Shown piece after piece: positions 56,835 to 64,000 of a DNA stretch of 64,000 nt (position 1 is its first letter; every line of letters starts with the position of its first letter). The translations under genes and the position numbers were made by a program. The stretch is from Klebsiella pneumoniae. GTDB taxonomy: Bacteria; Pseudomonadota; Gammaproteobacteria; Enterobacterales; Enterobacteriaceae. Where the stretch lies: the NCBI RefSeq assembly GCF_000742135.1, contig NZ_KN046818.1:1922841-1986840 (forward strand), given 5' to 3'. Below the pieces are notes generated by a model. It was given only the letters and a program-made list of their open reading frames with translations. It did no database searches and had not been told where the DNA came from.

Positions 56835-58474
56835 GGCTTCTTCACCTCTTCGGTATTTTCCCGCGATACGCCAGCGAACGAAGCGTTACCGAAAGGGCTG
56901 AGCACCAGGCCTTTCATATCATAGCGGTAGGCCTGCAGCCGCAGCGACGAGGCCAGCGGCAGGACCGGCAGTTCGCGGGCGAGGATCCGCTGCGCCTCTT
57001 TGTAAGCGTCCATCCGCGAGGAGAGCTGCTGCGAGAGCAGCGCTTTTTGCAGCACGTCGTCAAACTCCCGGTTACACCAGTGGGCAAAGTTGGTTTGCGA
57101 GGCGATGGCCGCGCAGCTCAGCAGCGGTCGGAAGAAACTGTCCGGATCGTTACTGTCCGTCGCCCAGCCGGAGAGCGTCAGGTCGTGGCTCATGTCCATC
57201 AGGCGCGCCTCCTGGAAACGTCCCTCTACCGGCACAATAATCACCTTAACGCCAATCTGCGCCATATCCGCCTGGATAAGCTCCGCCGTTTTCAGCGGGC
57301 TGGGATTCCACGCCTGCGAGCTGGTGGGCACCCACAGCTTGAGGGTCAGGTTTTCCAGCCCCAGGGCTTTCAGGCGGGCGCGGGCCTCCTGCGGATTATA
57401 TTCGGTAATTTTAGCGTCATTATCGTAGGCCCACGAGGCCCGCGGCAGCATGGACGCCGCCGTCTCCGCGGTGCCATAGTAGATGGACTGCATCAGGCGC
57501 TGGTTGTTAATCGCCAGCGCCAGCGCATGGCGCACCTCAGGGTTATCCAGCGGCGGCTTGGCGGTGTTGAAGGCCAGCCAGGCGATGTTCATTCCCGGGC
57601 GCAGCGTCAGGCGCAGGCGCGGGTCGTCACGCAGGATCGTCAACTGGCTGGCGGCCGGCCAGGCCAGCACGTCGCATTCTCCGGTCAGCAGTTTCGACAG
57701 GCGGCCGGTGCCGCCGGAGCCAAGGTCGACCACCACCTGGGGCATCAACGGTTTGCCGCGCCAGTAGCCGGGGTGGCGCTGCAGGCGAACATATTGTCCG
57801 GAGCGGTAATCGGATAGCTGGAACGGGCCGGTGCCAACCGGCTGGCGATCCAGTTGCTCCTGGCGGTCGTCCTGCGTTAAGCGGGCGGCATATTCGGCAG
57901 AGGTAATTGACGCATAGTGGGTGGCCAGATGCCAGAGGAACGAGGCGTCCGGCCGCTTGAGGCGAAACTCCACGGTCTGATTATCCAGCTTGCGGACGCT
58001 CTCCACGCTGTCAGCAAACTGCAGACTGTCGAAGTAGGGGAAGCTGCTGCCGTTGACGTTGTGCCACGGATGGTCGCGGTTAAAAATACGGCCAAAGGTA
58101 AAAATGACGTCATCGGCATTAAAGTCCCGCGTCGGGGTAAACCACGCCGTGCGTTGAAACGGGACGTGGCGGCGCAGGTGAAAGCGGTAGGTGGCGCCGT
58201 TATCGAGAACTTCCCAGCTCTCCGCCAGCTCGGGGACCAGCCGGTAGGTATAGGGATCGACGTCAAGCAGACGATCGTAGATCTGAGCGGCCAGCGTATC
58301 GACAATCAGGCCGCTGCTGACTTTCTGCGGATTAAAGGTATTAACCTGGCCGCTGACGCAATAGACGAAACCGCTATCGCGGATATCGGCGCGGTCGGGG
58401 AGCGCAGGGGCGGCAAAAGCTGGCCCACACAGCAGGGAAACGGCTGCCAGGAGAGATGACAATTTCAGGCGCAT
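56831..58474 (-). CDS. sapA: Sap ABC transporter periplasmic substrate-binding protein SapA
   Basis: A 547-residue family-5 peptide-binding protein. The signal peptide [21 protein letters not shown] is at 1-21, and the mature protein begins [23 protein letters not shown]-5 motifs include [33 protein letters not shown] and [23 protein letters not shown]. It is collinear with E. coli SapA. It binds antimicrobial peptides and haem in Haemophilus, but its natural ligand in Klebsiella is uncertain. It is the first gene of the operon; the ATG at 58472-58474 gives the family length. Confidence 0.95.
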
Positions 58475-58807
58475 ATTTTCTGTTTGATTATAGAGCTGAA
58501 CTCTATCTTATTAAGATTAATAGACATTCACCACCGCCTTCAACAAGCCTGAGGGATAATGCGGTTACCGGGTGCGTATAGTATTCAGTCAATTGATTAA
58601 AATAGTCGCGGAACCGAGTCTGTATAGTGAAACATGGTAACTTTTTATCGCCGATATCGCCAGTCAGCTCTGTTTGGCCGCGGTTGACCAAACGGCGACG
58701 ACGTGCGGACGCTAGAGAATAGATTCAGTATAGCGGGGAGAAAGCCGATGACCCGACGGGCGACTAGCCGTACCCGTCGGGTGTGATACAGGGGGAGCGT
58801 GTTTCGA
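58475..58807. other. sapA upstream region
   Basis: 333 bp between the sapA start and the SDR gene stop. It contains the sap promoter region (AT-rich, 58480-58660) and the hairpin at 58751-58782. No gene is seen; the ymjA/puu genes that lie here in E. coli are absent. Confidence 0.55.
58751..58782 (-). terminator. Hairpin downstream of the epimerase-type SDR gene
   Basis: ACCCGACGGG (58751-58760) pairs perfectly over 10 bp with CCCGTCGGGT (58773-58782). The minus-strand continuation CATCGGCTTTCTCC is partly U-rich. It would separate the SDR gene from sapA transcription. Confidence 0.6.
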
Positions 58808-59716
58808 TTATTGTGACAGTGTCACTTTATGATAGTCCATGTTCTGCAGGTCCTCCAGCAGCCCGGGGCCAACCGGCTGCCACTGCAAGCGCTCGCGGGT
58901 CCATGCCGAGCTGGCGCGCAGGTCAAGGGCGGTAAACGGCGCAAACCAGCCGAACCAGGCGTCGACCTGCGAGTCATCCAGGTGGGTCAGCGGCAGGTTT
59001 AATCCGTGGGCAATTACCGCTGCAATATCGCGTAACGCGATCCCCTCTTCGGCCACCGCATGATAGCGCTCGCCGGCCGCGCCCTGAAGCAGCGCGCTGA
59101 CATACAGACGTGCGACGTCATCGACATGGGCGGCTGACCAGCGGTTGCTTCCCTCGCCGCGCAGGGCTACCGCCCCGTTGGCGACCGCGCGTTCGATATA
59201 GCAGGTCAGCAGTCCCTGACGCACGGTGTCATGCACCTGCGGTAAGCGGACCACCCTGACATCCACTCCCGCCTCCAGCAACTGCTGGCCGGCGAGCTCT
59301 GAGGCGGTGCGCGGGCTGGGGTGCCCTGAGTTGAAGAACGACTCCCGGGCCGGGGCGCCGCTCCCGTCGTCGCCCATCAGCGTGCCGGAGGTGATCACCA
59401 GCGGCCGCGTGCTGCCTCGCAGCGCCTGGCCCAGGGCCAGGATCGCCTGGCGGTCTTTCTCGCAGTTAGCGGCAAAGCGGCTGAAGTCGTGGTCGAAGGC
59501 GGTATGGATCACCGCGTCGGCATTCCCGACGCCAGCCAGCAGCGACTCCGGGGCATCCAGCGTGCCGCGATGCACCTCGGCGCCGGCCGCCTTCAGGGCC
59601 TGTGCGGTGCTTTCGCTGCGCGCGAGGCCGATAACCTGATGGCCCGACGCCTGCAGCGCCGGAAGAATACGTGAGCCGATAAATCCGCTCGCGCCGGTAA
59701 GAAATATACGCATCAT
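58808..59716 (-). CDS. NAD-dependent epimerase/dehydratase family SDR
   Basis: A 302-residue extended SDR with the cofactor motif TGASGFIGSRI near residue 8. Tyr is not in an obvious YxxxK; in its place, at the usual position, is the FFNSGHPSPRTASELAGQQLL region, so catalytic competence is uncertain. The APFTALDLRASSAWTRERLQWQP C-terminal segment resembles NAD(P)H-binding/atypical SDRs that pair with MmyB-type regulators. Two adjacent ATGs (59714-59716 and 59711-59713) share AGGAGATCC. It is divergent from the HTH gene at 59821. The substrate is unknown. Confidence 0.82.
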   Translation of the reverse strand: MMRIFLTGASGFIGSRILPALQASGHQVIGLARSESTAQALKAAGAEVHRGTLDAPESLLAGVGNADAVIHTAFDHDFSRFAANCEKDRQAILALGQALRGSTRPLVITSGTLMGDDGSGAPARESFFNSGHPSPRTASELAGQQLLEAGVDVRVVRLPQVHDTVRQGLLTCYIERAVANGAVALRGEGSNRWSAAHVDDVARLYVSALLQGAAGERYHAVAEEGIALRDIAAVIAHGLNLPLTHLDDSQVDAWFGWFAPFTALDLRASSAWTRERLQWQPVGPGLLEDLQNMDYHKVTLSQ

Positions 59717-59820
59717 GGATCTCCTGAATGGGTTTCAGGCGTATCCTACCTGCGATGTCATACTATAAAAGTAGAGACATTATCGGGGTATAAATTCTAA
59801 CAGGCAGAACCCACAGGCAG

Positions 59821-60654
59821 ATGATGAACACTTCTGACAACCATGCTTTAGGCGATTTTCTCCGCGCCCGCCGCCAGCGTCTCGATCCGGCAACGTTTGG
59901 CTTCCCGGCGGGACGCCGGCGCACCCCGGGGCTGCGCCGCGAAGAGGTCGCGCAGCTCGCCAGCATCAGCCCGACCTGGTATACCTGGCTTGAACAGGGG
60001 CGCGGCGGGGCGCCTTCCCGCGAGGTGCTGGAGCGGATCGCCCGCGGTCTGCGGCTGACCACCCCGGAGCGCGAGCATCTGTTTATTCTCGCCTTTGGCC
60101 ATCCGCCGCAGACGCGTCTGACGGTGACGGATGATATGACGCCGCGGCTGCAGCGGGTGCTTGACGCTTTCACCATTCCGGCGATTATCCGCACCGCCAG
60201 CTGGGACGTCATCGCCTGGAACGCGCCGGCGGCCAGGGTGCTGACCGACTACAGCCAACTGCCGCTGGCGGAGCGCAACGTGCTGCGCCGCCTGTTTACC
60301 CGGCCGGAGGCCCGCTGCACTCTGGAGGACTGGCAGAGGGTGGGGCAGCTTATCGTCAACGCCTTCCGGGCCGACGTCACGCGGATGGGCGCCACGAAAG
60401 AAACTGACCAGTTGATCGCGGAGCTCAGCCAGCAGAGCGTCGAGTTCGCCCGTTTTTGGCAAAGCCATGACGTCGCCGGTCATGGAGAAGGCTATAAGCG
60501 CATTAACCACCCGCAGATGGGTCCGCTCGACCTGGAATTTACCTCCTTTGCCGTGGAGGGCCGTCCCGATCTTTCCCTGCTGGTCTTTAATCCGGCAACG
60601 ACGGAGAGCCAGCGGAAAATTCACGGTTTACTTCAGGGGCCTGTGGGCGACTGA
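59821..60654 (+). CDS. Helix-turn-helix regulator with MmyB-like ligand-binding domain
   Basis: A 277-residue regulator. The N-terminal XRE-type HTH (about 9-75) contains LGDFLRARRQRLDPATFGF, RRTPGLRREEVAQLASIS and WYTWLEQGR. It is followed by a MmyB-like/PAS-like sensor domain (about 105-265) with RLQRVLDAF, IIRTASWDVIAWN and LDLEFTSFAVEGRPDLSLLVFNP. Such proteins typically sit beside and regulate an oxidoreductase gene, as here. Two Met codons start it; no convincing ribosome site decides between them. Its 3' end overlaps the convergent AraC-type gene by 22 bp. Confidence 0.88.
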   Translation: MMNTSDNHALGDFLRARRQRLDPATFGFPAGRRRTPGLRREEVAQLASISPTWYTWLEQGRGGAPSREVLERIARGLRLTTPEREHLFILAFGHPPQTRLTVTDDMTPRLQRVLDAFTIPAIIRTASWDVIAWNAPAARVLTDYSQLPLAERNVLRRLFTRPEARCTLEDWQRVGQLIVNAFRADVTRMGATKETDQLIAELSQQSVEFARFWQSHDVAGHGEGYKRINHPQMGPLDLEFTSFAVEGRPDLSLLVFNPATTESQRKIHGLLQGPVGD

Positions 60655-62942
60655 GGCGTAAACTCGTACAGCACCAGCGCATTGCTCTGCAGCGAGTCGA
60701 TCCGCAGCCAATAGCCATCGAGCCTGGCTTCATCCACGCTGAGCGCCGGACGGGCCTGATGCATCAGCCACTGATAATCCTCGGCGTCAGGGCCGCTGCG
60801 GCTGCGAAAGGCGTCCACCAGCGGGAACAACGCGCCGTGGTGCTGATCGAACAGGTGCTGTTTGATGCGCCAGCTGCCATCCAGGCCCTGCAGCCGCACG
60901 CTGTAGGGCTGGCTGAAGCGCTGGATAAAGGCCGCTTCGCTGGAGAGCCAGGGATTGTAGACCACCGTATTGCGCAGCAGCAGCTGGTAGTGACCCTGGT
61001 GGTGGAGCAGCAGCAGGTTTTTATCGTGAACCAGGATCTCGCCGCGCAGCCGCCGCCAGAGCCAGAGTACCCAGTAAACCGGGCGCGGCAGGCCGTGCAG
61101 ATAGTGCAGCGCCAGGCTGGAGGTATCGAGCTTGCCGTTGGCGCGAGCTTCGCCCTGGAGGCCTGAATTTAACCAGAAGCCCGCCAGCCAGACCTGGTCC
61201 GCTACCCCCAGCAGATTATCCATCAGCAGCGCGCCGCGAAAAAAGCGGCCGTTGGTATCCCGCGTATCGCCGGTCAGCGTATTCCAGGAGAGCAGCCACA
61301 GCGGCAGGTTGAGCTGACGCTGGCGCAGGGCGCTGTGGATCTGCCGCAACTTGTGCAGCGGATAATGTTCACTGGAGGCCAGGCGGCTGCTGTCAACCTG
61401 GGCCAGATCCAGCTGTTCGTTGGCATCTGCCTGGCAGGCGAGAAAATCCGCCTCTGCCAGCAGCGGCGAGTGGAACAGCGGATCGTTCCCGGGATCGCTG
61501 GGAGCAAAGCGGTGCCAGATCCCCAGCTGCGGCTGCGGCAGCAGGCGATGAAGGACCCCGCGCTGCTGCCGCCAGGCGGCCTGGCGCGCAGCTTCGCTGG
61601 CCTGCGGCGACCAGTGCCAGACAAAGCGCCAGCTGTTGAGCGTGGCTGGCGGAAAATGGTTGGCGGCGAGCTGCAGGAAGCGCTGCAGCAGGTCACTGCG
61701 GGTGGTGACGCCGGTGTGCAGGATCACCTGCCAGCCCATCGCCGCCAGCCAGCTAAAAATCTGCTGCAGGTTGTACCAGCAGGCGTAGCCGGCCATCTGC
61801 GGATCGTCCCAGCCGGTGCCGAACAGCCGACTGCTGAGAAAGGGATCGTTGATATCGATGGCATACACCGGCAGGGCGTGGTGCAGCTGTTCGAGTTCCC
61901 GGCGCACATCTTCGCGCAGCAGATCGTCCAGTTCGCGCACGGTCACCACCATCCGGGTATGGCGCAGCGCTGCGGGGCGCGCTGGACGATCGCGCAGATT
62001 GATCTCCCGGGTCTGCGGTGGGTTGATCGGCAGGGGGGGACTTTCCCGGTCGCGTGGTTCCGGCTCATTGAGTCGCGCATACAGCCGGTCGACCGCCACC
62101 GGCTGCCAGCGATCGGCCTGCGGCGGGCGCGGTCTGGCAAGCTCCAGAGGATGCTGTTCACGATACTGGCGCGGCGTCACGCCGTGCTGGCGCTTAAACA
62201 AATCGCTCATCATTCGCGTACTGGCGAATCCCTGTTCGCGGGCGATTTGCTGGACGGTTTTGCGGGTGGTTAATAGCTGGTCGGCGGCGTGGCGCAGGCG
62301 CAGCGCGGTGAGGTACTGGACAAAACTTACCCCGACCTCTTTGCGAAATAAGCGTGACAGCCAGGCCTCGGAGACAAATTCCGCGGCCGCCACCTCCTGC
62401 AACGAGAGGCGACGCTGATAGTTAGCGTCGATCCGCGCCACCACGCTGGCTATTCTCCGGCTCCATTTTTCGGTATCGCGCCGGGGCGTGGAGGCGATGG
62501 GCTGGCTAAAGCGCGTGGCCAGCAGCAGCGCTATCTCACTCAGCCAGCGGTTGGCCTCCAGTCGGTAATGGCTAGGATGATTGACCAGGCCGCTCACCAG
62601 CAGCTGGCGCATCAGGCGGCGCAGGCCGTCATCGGCATCCCGGGTGCGCGGCGTTATCTGGTAATCGACGGCAAAAAAGGCATTATCGAGGCGGGCCAGC
62701 CAGCTGGCGGAGAGGGTGAGGATCATCACGGCGTTGGCCCCGGCGCTGCGCAGGCTCCAGCGACGGTTGCGGTTAACGATCGCCAGCCCGTCGGCGGCGA
62801 GCAGCTGCGACGCACCTTCCGCCACCGCCAGATTTACGCTTCCCTCCAGTACCCACAGCAGCGTCAGCAGATCGCTTTCCGGCTGGGTCAGCTGACGCAC
62901 ATCGCGTACGGTGACGCTAAAGTCGCCTGCATGCTGCTCCAC
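60633..62942 (-). CDS. AraC-type regulator fused to a GH39-like domain
   Basis: A 769-residue protein if it starts at GTG (62940-62942), which is preferred because GAGGAG lies upstream at normal distance; a TTG seven codons earlier has no ribosome site and would place coding sequence in the palindrome. Numbered from that TTG, a cupin-like N-terminus occupies 15-110. The AraC double HTH occupies about 180-270 (LSLQEVAAAEFVSEAWLSRLF and TVQQIAREQGFASTRMMSDLF, then GVTPRQYR). A Pro/Arg-rich linker spans 275-335. A GH39-type TIM barrel from about 340 to the end includes WYNLQQIFSWLAAMGWQVIL and LWLLSWNTLTGDTRDTNGRF. The catalytic acid and nucleophile positions appear as FVWHW and LLSWNT, lacking Glu. 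It is divergent from an M20 amidohydrolase. A sugar- or glycan-sensing activator is the likely role. Confidence 0.82.
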   Translation of the reverse strand: MEQHAGDFSVTVRDVRQLTQPESDLLTLLWVLEGSVNLAVAEGASQLLAADGLAIVNRNRRWSLRSAGANAVMILTLSASWLARLDNAFFAVDYQITPRTRDADDGLRRLMRQLLVSGLVNHPSHYRLEANRWLSEIALLLATRFSQPIASTPRRDTEKWSRRIASVVARIDANYQRRLSLQEVAAAEFVSEAWLSRLFRKEVGVSFVQYLTALRLRHAADQLLTTRKTVQQIAREQGFASTRMMSDLFKRQHGVTPRQYREQHPLELARPRPPQADRWQPVAVDRLYARLNEPEPRDRESPPLPINPPQTREINLRDRPARPAALRHTRMVVTVRELDDLLREDVRRELEQLHHALPVYAIDINDPFLSSRLFGTGWDDPQMAGYACWYNLQQIFSWLAAMGWQVILHTGVTTRSDLLQRFLQLAANHFPPATLNSWRFVWHWSPQASEAARQAAWRQQRGVLHRLLPQPQLGIWHRFAPSDPGNDPLFHSPLLAEADFLACQADANEQLDLAQVDSSRLASSEHYPLHKLRQIHSALRQRQLNLPLWLLSWNTLTGDTRDTNGRFFRGALLMDNLLGVADQVWLAGFWLNSGLQGEARANGKLDTSSLALHYLHGLPRPVYWVLWLWRRLRGEILVHDKNLLLLHHQGHYQLLLRNTVVYNPWLSSEAAFIQRFSQPYSVRLQGLDGSWRIKQHLFDQHHGALFPLVDAFRSRSGPDAEDYQWLMHQARPALSVDEARLDGYWLRIDSLQSNALVLYEFTPQSPTGP

Positions 62943-62958
62943 ATGGCTCTCCTCTGTA

Positions 62959-62986
62959 GACAAAAAACAACCGGTTGTTTTTTGTC
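62959..62986. promoter_or_regulatory. Perfect 28-bp palindrome between the AraC-GH39 and M20 genes
   Basis: Half-site GACAAAAAACAACC is followed immediately by its exact reverse complement. It lies 17 bp upstream of the regulator's GTG and about 128 bp upstream of the amidohydrolase ATG. Position and symmetry suggest an operator, most simply an autoregulatory site. It could also form a hairpin in RNA. Confidence 0.65.
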
Positions 62987-63113
62987 ATAACCGATATGTA
63001 TGAAAAACACTCATTGATTTTTCGTCAATATAAAACAAAAAAGCGCGCCTGCAAGCTGAGGTACCCGCATAAACTCGAAGGTGTCGTGCAAACACAACAC
63101 AGGAATAACAAAA

Positions 63114-64000
63114 ATGACACATCCGTTGCTAGAAGCATTGCAGGTTAACGAGGCGCAATTTATCGCTCTGCGTCGTCGGTTCCACCAGCAGCCGGAGATC
63201 GGCTTTGAAGAGCACCAGACCAGCAGCGAGGTCGCCCGACTGCTTGGCGAGTGGGGATACGAGGTTCACCGCGGCCTGGCGGGCACCGGAGTGGTGGGCA
63301 CGCTGCGCGTCGGCGAGGGGAAAAAACGCCTTGGCCTGCGGGCGGATATGGATGCCCTGCCGATGCAGGAGCGGAGCGGTAAGCCGTGGGCAAGCCAGGT
63401 TGAAGGGCGCTTTCACGGCTGCGGCCATGACGGGCACACCACCACGCTGCTCTACGCAGCTGAATATCTGGCGCGCACCCGGCAGTTTACCGGCACGCTG
63501 CAGCTGATTTTCCAGCCCGCGGAAGAGTTGCTGTACGGCGGGCGGGTAATGGTCGAGGACGGTCTATTTGACCAGTTTCCCTGCGACGCCATCTTCGGCC
63601 TGCACAATATGCCGGGTCAGCCGTTGGGCAAGATCGGCCTGCGCGACGGGGCGATGATGGCCTCCTCCGATACGCTGCATATTGAAGTGAAGGGCGTTGG
63701 CGGCCACGGCGCGGTGCCGGAGCATACGGTGGATGCCACGCTGGTGGCCTGCCATATTACCCTCGCGCTACAGTCCATTGTCTCGCGCAATATCACCCCG
63801 TTTGAGCCGGCGGTGGTGACCGTCGGCAGCATCCAGGCCGGTCATGCGCCCAATATCATTAACGATCACGTGCTGATGAAGCTCACGGTGCGCACCCTCA
63901 ATGAGCAGGTGCGCGAGACCGTGCTGCAGCGGATCCATGATATCGCCGTGGCCCAGGCGGAGAGCTTCAATGCCACCGCCACGCTGACCCACGTCAACGG
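63114..64000 (+). CDS. M20 family metallo-amidohydrolase (hippurate hydrolase-like), C-terminal part outside window
   Basis: The first 295 codons of an M20D amidohydrolase. Visible motifs are RRRFHQQPEIGFEEHQTS, LRADMDALPMQE, the metal-site GCGHDGHTTTLL, FQPAEELLYGGRVM with the catalytic Glu, LHNMPG, and the start of the dimerisation domain VKGVGGHGAVPEHTVDA. Relatives hydrolyse N-acyl amino acids, hippurate or indole-3-acetyl amino acids; this one's substrate is unknown. The ATG at 63114 follows ACAGGAATAAC. It is divergent from the AraC-GH39 regulator, which probably controls it. Confidence 0.88.
   Translation, partial: MTHPLLEALQVNEAQFIALRRRFHQQPEIGFEEHQTSSEVARLLGEWGYEVHRGLAGTGVVGTLRVGEGKKRLGLRADMDALPMQERSGKPWASQVEGRFHGCGHDGHTTTLLYAAEYLARTRQFTGTLQLIFQPAEELLYGGRVMVEDGLFDQFPCDAIFGLHNMPGQPLGKIGLRDGAMMASSDTLHIEVKGVGGHGAVPEHTVDATLVACHITLALQSIVSRNITPFEPAVVTVGSIQAGHAPNIINDHVLMKLTVRTLNEQVRETVLQRIHDIAVAQAESFNATATLTHVN

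Follow-up and report, generated by a model that had tools for sequence, protein, structure and literature searches.

The 64,000-nucleotide stretch of Klebsiella pneumoniae DNA analysed here (the window) carries near its end a gene for a 769-residue AraC-type regulator, whose C-terminal module resembles glycoside hydrolase family 39 (GH39) enzymes and has lost their catalytic glutamates. It is divergent from a gene for an M20-family aminoacylase, which is followed beyond the window by a gene for a NorC-type transporter of the major facilitator superfamily (MFS). The features are as follows.

60633..62942, minus strand: AraC regulator with a C-terminal pseudo-GH39 module, 769 residues (from the list of open reading frames; relatives known)
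62493..62942, minus strand: N-terminal ~150 residues of the regulator, probably a cupin-like AraC ligand-binding/dimerisation domain (extent estimated)
62154..62390, minus strand: AraC-type helix-turn-helix (HTH) domain, residues 185-263 (Pfam HTH_18 and HTH_AraC)
60636..61961, minus strand: GH39-type module, residues ~328-769, by sequence a catalytically dead barrel and a C-terminal sandwich
61608..61613, minus strand: Trp444-Ser445, aligned with the GH39 acid/base Glu (WNEP)
61287..61289, minus strand: Ser552, opposite the nucleophile Glu of GH39 (TE[YFW]N)
61233..61256, minus strand: TNGRFFRG, residues 563-570 (alignment A4)
62959..62986, no strand: 28-bp perfect palindrome GACAAAAAACAACC/GGTTGTTTTTTGTC, candidate operator just upstream of the regulator start
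63114..64000, plus strand: M20 aminoacylase gene, divergent from the regulator (whole gene 63114-64283, L033:10955-12124, from the same genome)
64309-65700: NorC-type MFS gene of DHA2 type, beyond the window and after the aminoacylase (L033:12150-13541, from the same genome)

The regulator starts at a GTG codon preceded by AGAGGAG. An alternative in-frame TTG start at 62963 would add seven residues (776 in all), and it is in this longer count that the positions given in the initial annotation for FVWHW (447-451) and LLSWN (557-561) are right, the 769-residue count placing them at 440-444 and 550-554. Membership in the AraC/XylS family is indicated by a double HTH (PF12833, HTH_18, E 8.6e-22; PF00165, E 2e-13). 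The N-terminus of the window protein itself gave no Pfam match; a cupin-like domain is likely there, because the AraC_binding model PF02311 matches 10/26 relatives at E <= 0.01. These 26 are a subset of the 76-row alignment A4, across which N564, G565, F567, F568, R569 and G570 are invariant and from which five of 80 loci with a regulator reading frame under 700 residues were left out (L080, L086, L101, L118 and L135). The 80 loci are the best 80 of 121 confirmed in a scan of genome contigs, and since that scan used the single pattern NGxFFRGAL, it favours the AryK-type clade described below. Plasmid records of K. pneumoniae encode the regulator at 98.8-99.0% identity. An XRE-type helix-turn-helix gene (59821-60654, plus strand) is convergent with the regulator gene, the 3' ends of the two overlapping by 22 bp (60633-60654).

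Profile comparisons bear out the proposal, made in the initial annotation, that the last ~440 residues of this AraC regulator form a GH39-type module. The Pfam search for PF01229 suggested there as a check gave no match in the window protein, and Pfam and NCBIfam together returned HTH matches and a sub-cut-off AryK match, with no GH39 model. PF01229 does match 10/26 relatives, and its lack of any match in a whole-genome search of 60 relatives' genomes marks the model as too insensitive here. As Pfam misses the domain in Enterobacteriaceae, annotation will not reveal it in that family. Upon searching with phmmer, the C-terminal half of the module matched the GH39 beta-xylosidase 1px8 (E 6.7e-5), and a 16-row profile matched the same structure at E 1.1e-13 over profile positions 6-439 of 441; among the PDB matches listed for this profile (E up to 10), 10 of the 14 distinct sequences are beta-xylosidases. 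Using hhalign, we obtained 99.5% and E 8.9e-23 over 434 columns for a 40-row profile against 11 free-standing GH39 proteins, and 97.5% and E 5.6e-12 over 366 columns for nine Enterobacteriaceae rows alone against the same proteins. By these alignments, the C-terminal module is GH39 in ancestry over both the barrel and the C-terminal sandwich.

Both glutamates that define an active GH39 enzyme are absent from the window protein, as had been claimed. We take the aligned Glu of WNEP and of TE[YFW]N to be the acid/base and nucleophile residues of GH39, respectively. TE[YFW]N aligned to LLSWN in both hhalign comparisons, putting Ser552 in place of the nucleophile, while WNEP fell on Ser445 with the 9-row profile or on Trp444 with the 40-row profile, a single gap deciding between the two, neither of which is acidic. 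A 124-row alignment, excluding nine identical rows and those with fewer than 380 residues of barrel, retained both Glu in all 14 rows of free GH39. The substitution extends to most enterobacterial relatives: of the 48 enterobacterial-type rows (one of them a Neisseriaceae metagenome-assembled genome, MAG), 44 lack Glu both at the nucleophile column and within one column of the acid/base column. The nucleophile Glu is kept in 1/44 Bacillota AryK-type rows. Other AraC-GH39 fusions have the nucleophile Glu in 8/10 rows and the acid/base Glu in 5/10, and the "known pattern" of Firmicutes fusions invoked for this segment suits those proteins, with their TEWN, better than the AryK-type clade.

In a 78-row regulator tree, a quick tree with long-branch warnings, the AryK-type proteins (56/78 rows) separate from other AraC-GH39 fusions and from free GH39 with a support of 98 (SH-aLRT, an approximate likelihood-ratio test). 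Twenty enterobacterial-type rows, including one Neisseriaceae MAG, nest inside this group beside 21 Bacillota rows, with a support of 96 for the union. The clade bears the mark WNTL(T/S)G-x(3-5)-TNG-x-FFRGAL, and by this placement the window gene belongs to an AryK-type clade common to Enterobacteriaceae and Bacillota. Within the genus, 17/20 genomes had a module match, one of them at just 30% identity; relatives were present in 22/295 genomes of the family, and a class sample contained the genome itself and none of 368 others (1/369), so that the suggested rarity in Gammaproteobacteria is half right. Matches at E <= 1e-3 occurred in 26/398 genomes of a Bacillota sample, three of them clearly AryK-type (E < 1e-100), and a Bacilli sample yielded 23/398 genomes at E <= 1e-20, 18 of these at E <= 1e-50. 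Escherichia coli genomes gave no match by megablast, the only search applied to them, which would miss distant copies. A Neisseriaceae MAG (L084) contains the enterobacterial type of the gene set, amidase and MFS included, and one Enterobacteriaceae genome (L055; L029) has a broken regulator remnant with one TAG and no amidase or transporter match.

The regulator keeps the same two partners in both phyla. Counting tblastn matches at E <= 1e-8 over at least half of the query, we found both the M20 amidase and the NorC-type MFS in 71/80 loci, namely 32/35 of enterobacterial type and 39/45 others; the amidase gene is divergent in all 32 of those enterobacterial-type loci and in one other locus. 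A family survey of 23 loci gave the amidase in 22 and both partners in 21, and 14 further Bacilli loci had both in 13 and the amidase alone in one. Around other AraC-GH39 fusions (18 loci, four from one genome), the MFS gene was found in 0/18 and a weak M20 match (25%) in 1/18. Clustering of the neighbours in 74 loci by single linkage, which may pull in paralogues, placed the regulator in 74, M20 in 72, MFS in 70 and the next family in nine.

The surroundings of the set vary. SapA and PspF, local neighbours in Klebsiella, were detected in 0/45 loci of non-enterobacterial type. In Klebsiella and several relatives, the set lies between sapABCDF and the psp genes (window 58474-63114 from sapA to the aminoacylase); in some other Enterobacteriaceae (e.g., L041, L065 and L070), neither SapA nor PspF is in the fetched flank, and the set is placed differently. 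It also occurs on the Citrobacter freundii plasmid NZ_CP056210, flanked on both sides by IS26 and IS110-type transposase genes, and on the Enterococcus lactis plasmid NZ_CP084247, which PLSDB classes as conjugative. In L252, a plasmid record of K. pneumoniae 233 kb long, the whole sap-psp stretch is present together with the set, as a chromosome-like block. In a chromosome-sized Listeria monocytogenes record (L315:4590-10919), two M20 genes flank the set's MFS gene, which a resistance predictor flags as norB, a predicted fluoroquinolone resistance gene. In another Bacilli genome (L288:318-4131), two M20 genes enclose a NorC-type MFS gene, and the stretch of 4.4 kb contains no AryK-type regulator.

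The amidase retains the motifs GCGHDGH and PAEE. Among PDB entries it matches IAA-amino acid hydrolase, YxeP, 4ewt and N-acyl-glutamine aminoacylase, and its nearest solved relatives cleave N-acyl amino acids or related conjugates. All 20 amidases of enterobacterial cassettes group together in the amidase tree (support 99), with another Klebsiella M20 as the nearest row, and in 4/4 Bacillota genomes a non-cassette M20 is more similar to the window amidase than the cassette's own. Forcing both cassette amidase groups together costs 122.5 log-likelihood units (approximately unbiased, AU, test, p 2.6e-60). According to these trees, the amidase slot was filled twice, from two M20 branches.

For the transporter, the best PDB match is 7d5p, the NorC structure (E 8.5e-141). 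Residues Q27 and K398 of NorC correspond to Q33 and K405 (hand count on the alignment), so that the operon transporter has the two marks of the NorB/NorC type, a Gln replacing the acid of transmembrane helix (TM) 1 and the lysine of TM13, the roles of these residues being those described in excerpts of PMC8257674. In one Bacilli genome, the proteins of the set score 656 bits (transporter, against 7d5p) and 667 bits (amidase, against 4ewt), matches which indicate that such a set contains either NorC or a near copy of it. In the transporter tree, from which L118 and L296 were excluded, the copies of both lineages group together with NorB-like paralogues and well away from the remaining DHA2 proteins. 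Enterobacterial cassette copies appear there in two places, one of 17 rows and one made up of the pair L051/L253, and several of the inner forks are left unresolved, so the tree does not show a single clean transfer. Regulator and transporter are, by these comparisons, homologous across the phyla, and in the quick, long-branched regulator tree the enterobacterial rows lie within Bacillota. Excerpts of the NorC structure study describe a vestibule with one lysine and no acidic residue, and already put in print that NorC relatives "retain an amidohydrolase" and that the natural substrate is unknown (PMC8257674).

The window palindrome is one case of an inverted repeat, GACAAAAAA-N9/10-TTTTTTGTC. 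Upstream of the regulator, at least 15/18 arm bases are present in 26/27 enterobacterial loci (L057-L083), and for every one of these 26, 0/60 shuffles did equally well; L126 and L133 likewise reach 15/18. As the arms were chosen from enterobacterial sequences, the scan tests conservation and not discovery. No convincing match was found upstream of six control fusions. An alignment of 13 intergenic regions shows no variation in TTATGACAAAAAA and TTTTTCATA. Conserved arms around a variable middle are expected of a binding site, and the repeat is likely an operator. A promoter and terminator scan of the intergenic region returned none of either.

In Staphylococcus aureus, SA0097 is presumably aryK, and SA0098 and SA0099 are, from gene order, presumably SACOL0085 and SACOL0086. 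The available parts of the literature describe SA0097 as an AraC gene and SA0099 as a "transmembrane efflux pump" (PMC6956076), and report SA0098 and SA0099 as induced together by Angeli's salt, 15.0- and 14.1-fold (PMC5480029). A label of SA0099 as a component of the phosphotransferase system, seen in part of PMC3733780, conflicts with the efflux pump of PMC6956076 and was set aside; SAUSA300_0085, from an excerpt of PMC12713382, proved to be an unrelated gene, and a metal-dependent bile salt hydrolase (PMC13081902, likewise an excerpt) belongs to another superfamily. AryK is known from virulence work (PMC3922988 and PMC7241556, in excerpts), and the portions seen of both papers discuss neither its barrel nor a ligand. 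Within the partial collection of literature searched, no description of the barrel of an AryK-type regulator was found.

We consider it somewhat better than an even bet that the regulator's dead barrel is a ligand sensor controlling the aminoacylase/NorC-type operon, its ligand being the amide-linked compound that the operon handles or a product thereof. In such a scheme, a cytoplasmic AraC-type regulator would carry a GH39-derived module that no longer cuts glycosides and serves instead in ligand binding, perhaps with the cupin-like N-terminal domain sharing in the sensing. It would bind to the conserved inverted repeat between its own gene and the divergent aminoacylase-MFS operon and thereby control that operon. 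The ligand would most likely be an anionic amide-linked conjugate, for example an N-acyl amino acid, or its product, which the NorC-type transporter would carry, whichever its direction of transport, and the aminoacylase would split. For a regulator that has lost its catalytic acids and has travelled together with an aminoacylase and a NorC-type carrier, the simplest ligand is the compound on which these two partners act, and the presence of the aminoacylase together with a carrier vestibule that has positive and no negative charge points to anionic amides.

Several observations weigh against this reading. Nine of the 80 loci are without one or both partners: three (L080, L115 and L117) come from stretches that are short or cut, two (L086 and L097) are fragmentary, and in four, all from Listeria, the amidase is present without a detected MFS. 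In one Bacilli genome, the NorC-type paralogues L290, L299, L306 and L313 have no M20 gene within ~1.5 kb. The separate origin of the amidases was put to the AU test on a group named after the tree had been seen, a quick tree with long branches. Glu is retained at or beside one site in 4/48 enterobacterial-type rows, three of which (L026-L028) keep the nucleophile in L/V-EWN, and next to the acid/base column 32/44 Bacillota AryK-type rows retain a pair, E-P or E-S; since some enterobacterial rows thus keep one Glu and most Bacillota rows keep the pair, the loss of the two residues is, by the alignment, stepwise and non-uniform. The inverted repeat was not found upstream of the Bacillota copies (best 15/18 in L116, otherwise at most 14), and there is no sigma-70-like promoter pair in 62900-63150. 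Finally, no effect on neighbour genes is mentioned in the excerpts from the AryK study (PMC3922988).

That the dead barrel senses a sugar, with a xyloside-like or other glycan ligand and sugar supply controlling the operon, seems unlikely to us. The GH39 ancestry speaks for it, and so does the acid/base-like E-P of those 32/44 Bacillota rows, which could still hold a glycoside. The conserved partners, an aminoacylase and a NorC-type transporter, speak against it and make an amide-linked ligand at least as likely as a sugar. Furthermore, no glycosidase was recognised among the neighbour clusters present in at least 4 of the 74 loci, as judged from the first letters of unannotated sequences. Hence, the "sugar-binding sensor" of the initial annotation is weakened, no sugar gene having been seen as a conserved neighbour. 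We give slightly less credit still to the idea that the barrel is a mere dimerisation or scaffold domain and that sensing falls to the cupin-like N-terminus, in the manner of classical AraC proteins: AraC_binding or cupin models do match part of the relatives (10/26 for PF02311), whereas the invariant polar and aromatic residues W553, N564, G565, F567, F568 and R569 after the former nucleophile strand give a weak hint of a kept pocket. A drug-responsive regulator of a multidrug pump, with the MFS exporting toxic compounds that the amidase inactivates, is improbable, for although NorB and NorC are named as resistance pumps, the Listeria copy is flagged norB, and S. aureus SACOL0086 rises 3-fold with diclofenac (PMC3158543, in part), the seen parts of the NorC structure study report no fluoroquinolone or monovalent cation transport (PMC8257674), and SACOL0086 and SACOL0085 fall 2.0- and 2.5-fold with another antibacterial (excerpt of PMC5617981).

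Building on the reading of the barrel as a sensor of an amide-linked compound, we tentatively put forward a wider and more doubtful proposal. A GH39 barrel may have become the sensor of a non-sugar amide-linked conjugate for a portable set of regulator, aminoacylase and transporter that has passed between Bacillota and Enterobacterales; each lineage would have recruited its amidase separately while the sensor and the NorC-type carrier were kept, so that the ligand of the barrel would be the natural substrate class of NorB/NorC. If true, an enzyme barrel would have taken on a new role as a sensor in transcription, perhaps with a class of ligands that its ancestor never cut. The regulator would then offer a handle on the natural substrate of the NorB/NorC transporters, stated to be unknown in the excerpts of PMC8257674, and genes of norB type that homology marks as resistance genes, as in the Listeria example, may belong to an amide-conjugate operon.

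Among known systems, the closest is AryK of S. aureus (NCBIfam NF047455), in which a long C-terminal region likewise comes after an AraC HTH. The window protein matches its model at E 4.3e-75 with 253.4 bits (best stretch 506-768), and AryK-type Bacilli loci hold the same two partners as the window; however, this score lies far under the 850-bit equivalog cut-off, which places the protein outside the equivalog, and its identity to Staphylococcus-type copies is ~20-23%. The GH39 beta-xylosidases (1px8/1uhv, 6yyh and 2bs9) are homologous across the whole module, whereas the window module is fused to an AraC HTH and has both catalytic Glu replaced. Other Bacillota AraC-GH39 fusions have a domain order identical to that of the window protein, but form a separate tree group and have no NorC-type gene in 18/18 loci. 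The NorC set of S. aureus differs in that the enterobacterial amidase comes from another M20 branch and in that the parts seen of PMC8257674 mention no regulator; it is alike in that the window operon has a transporter of NorC type, and the link of NorC with an amidohydrolase neighbour is in print in those same parts.

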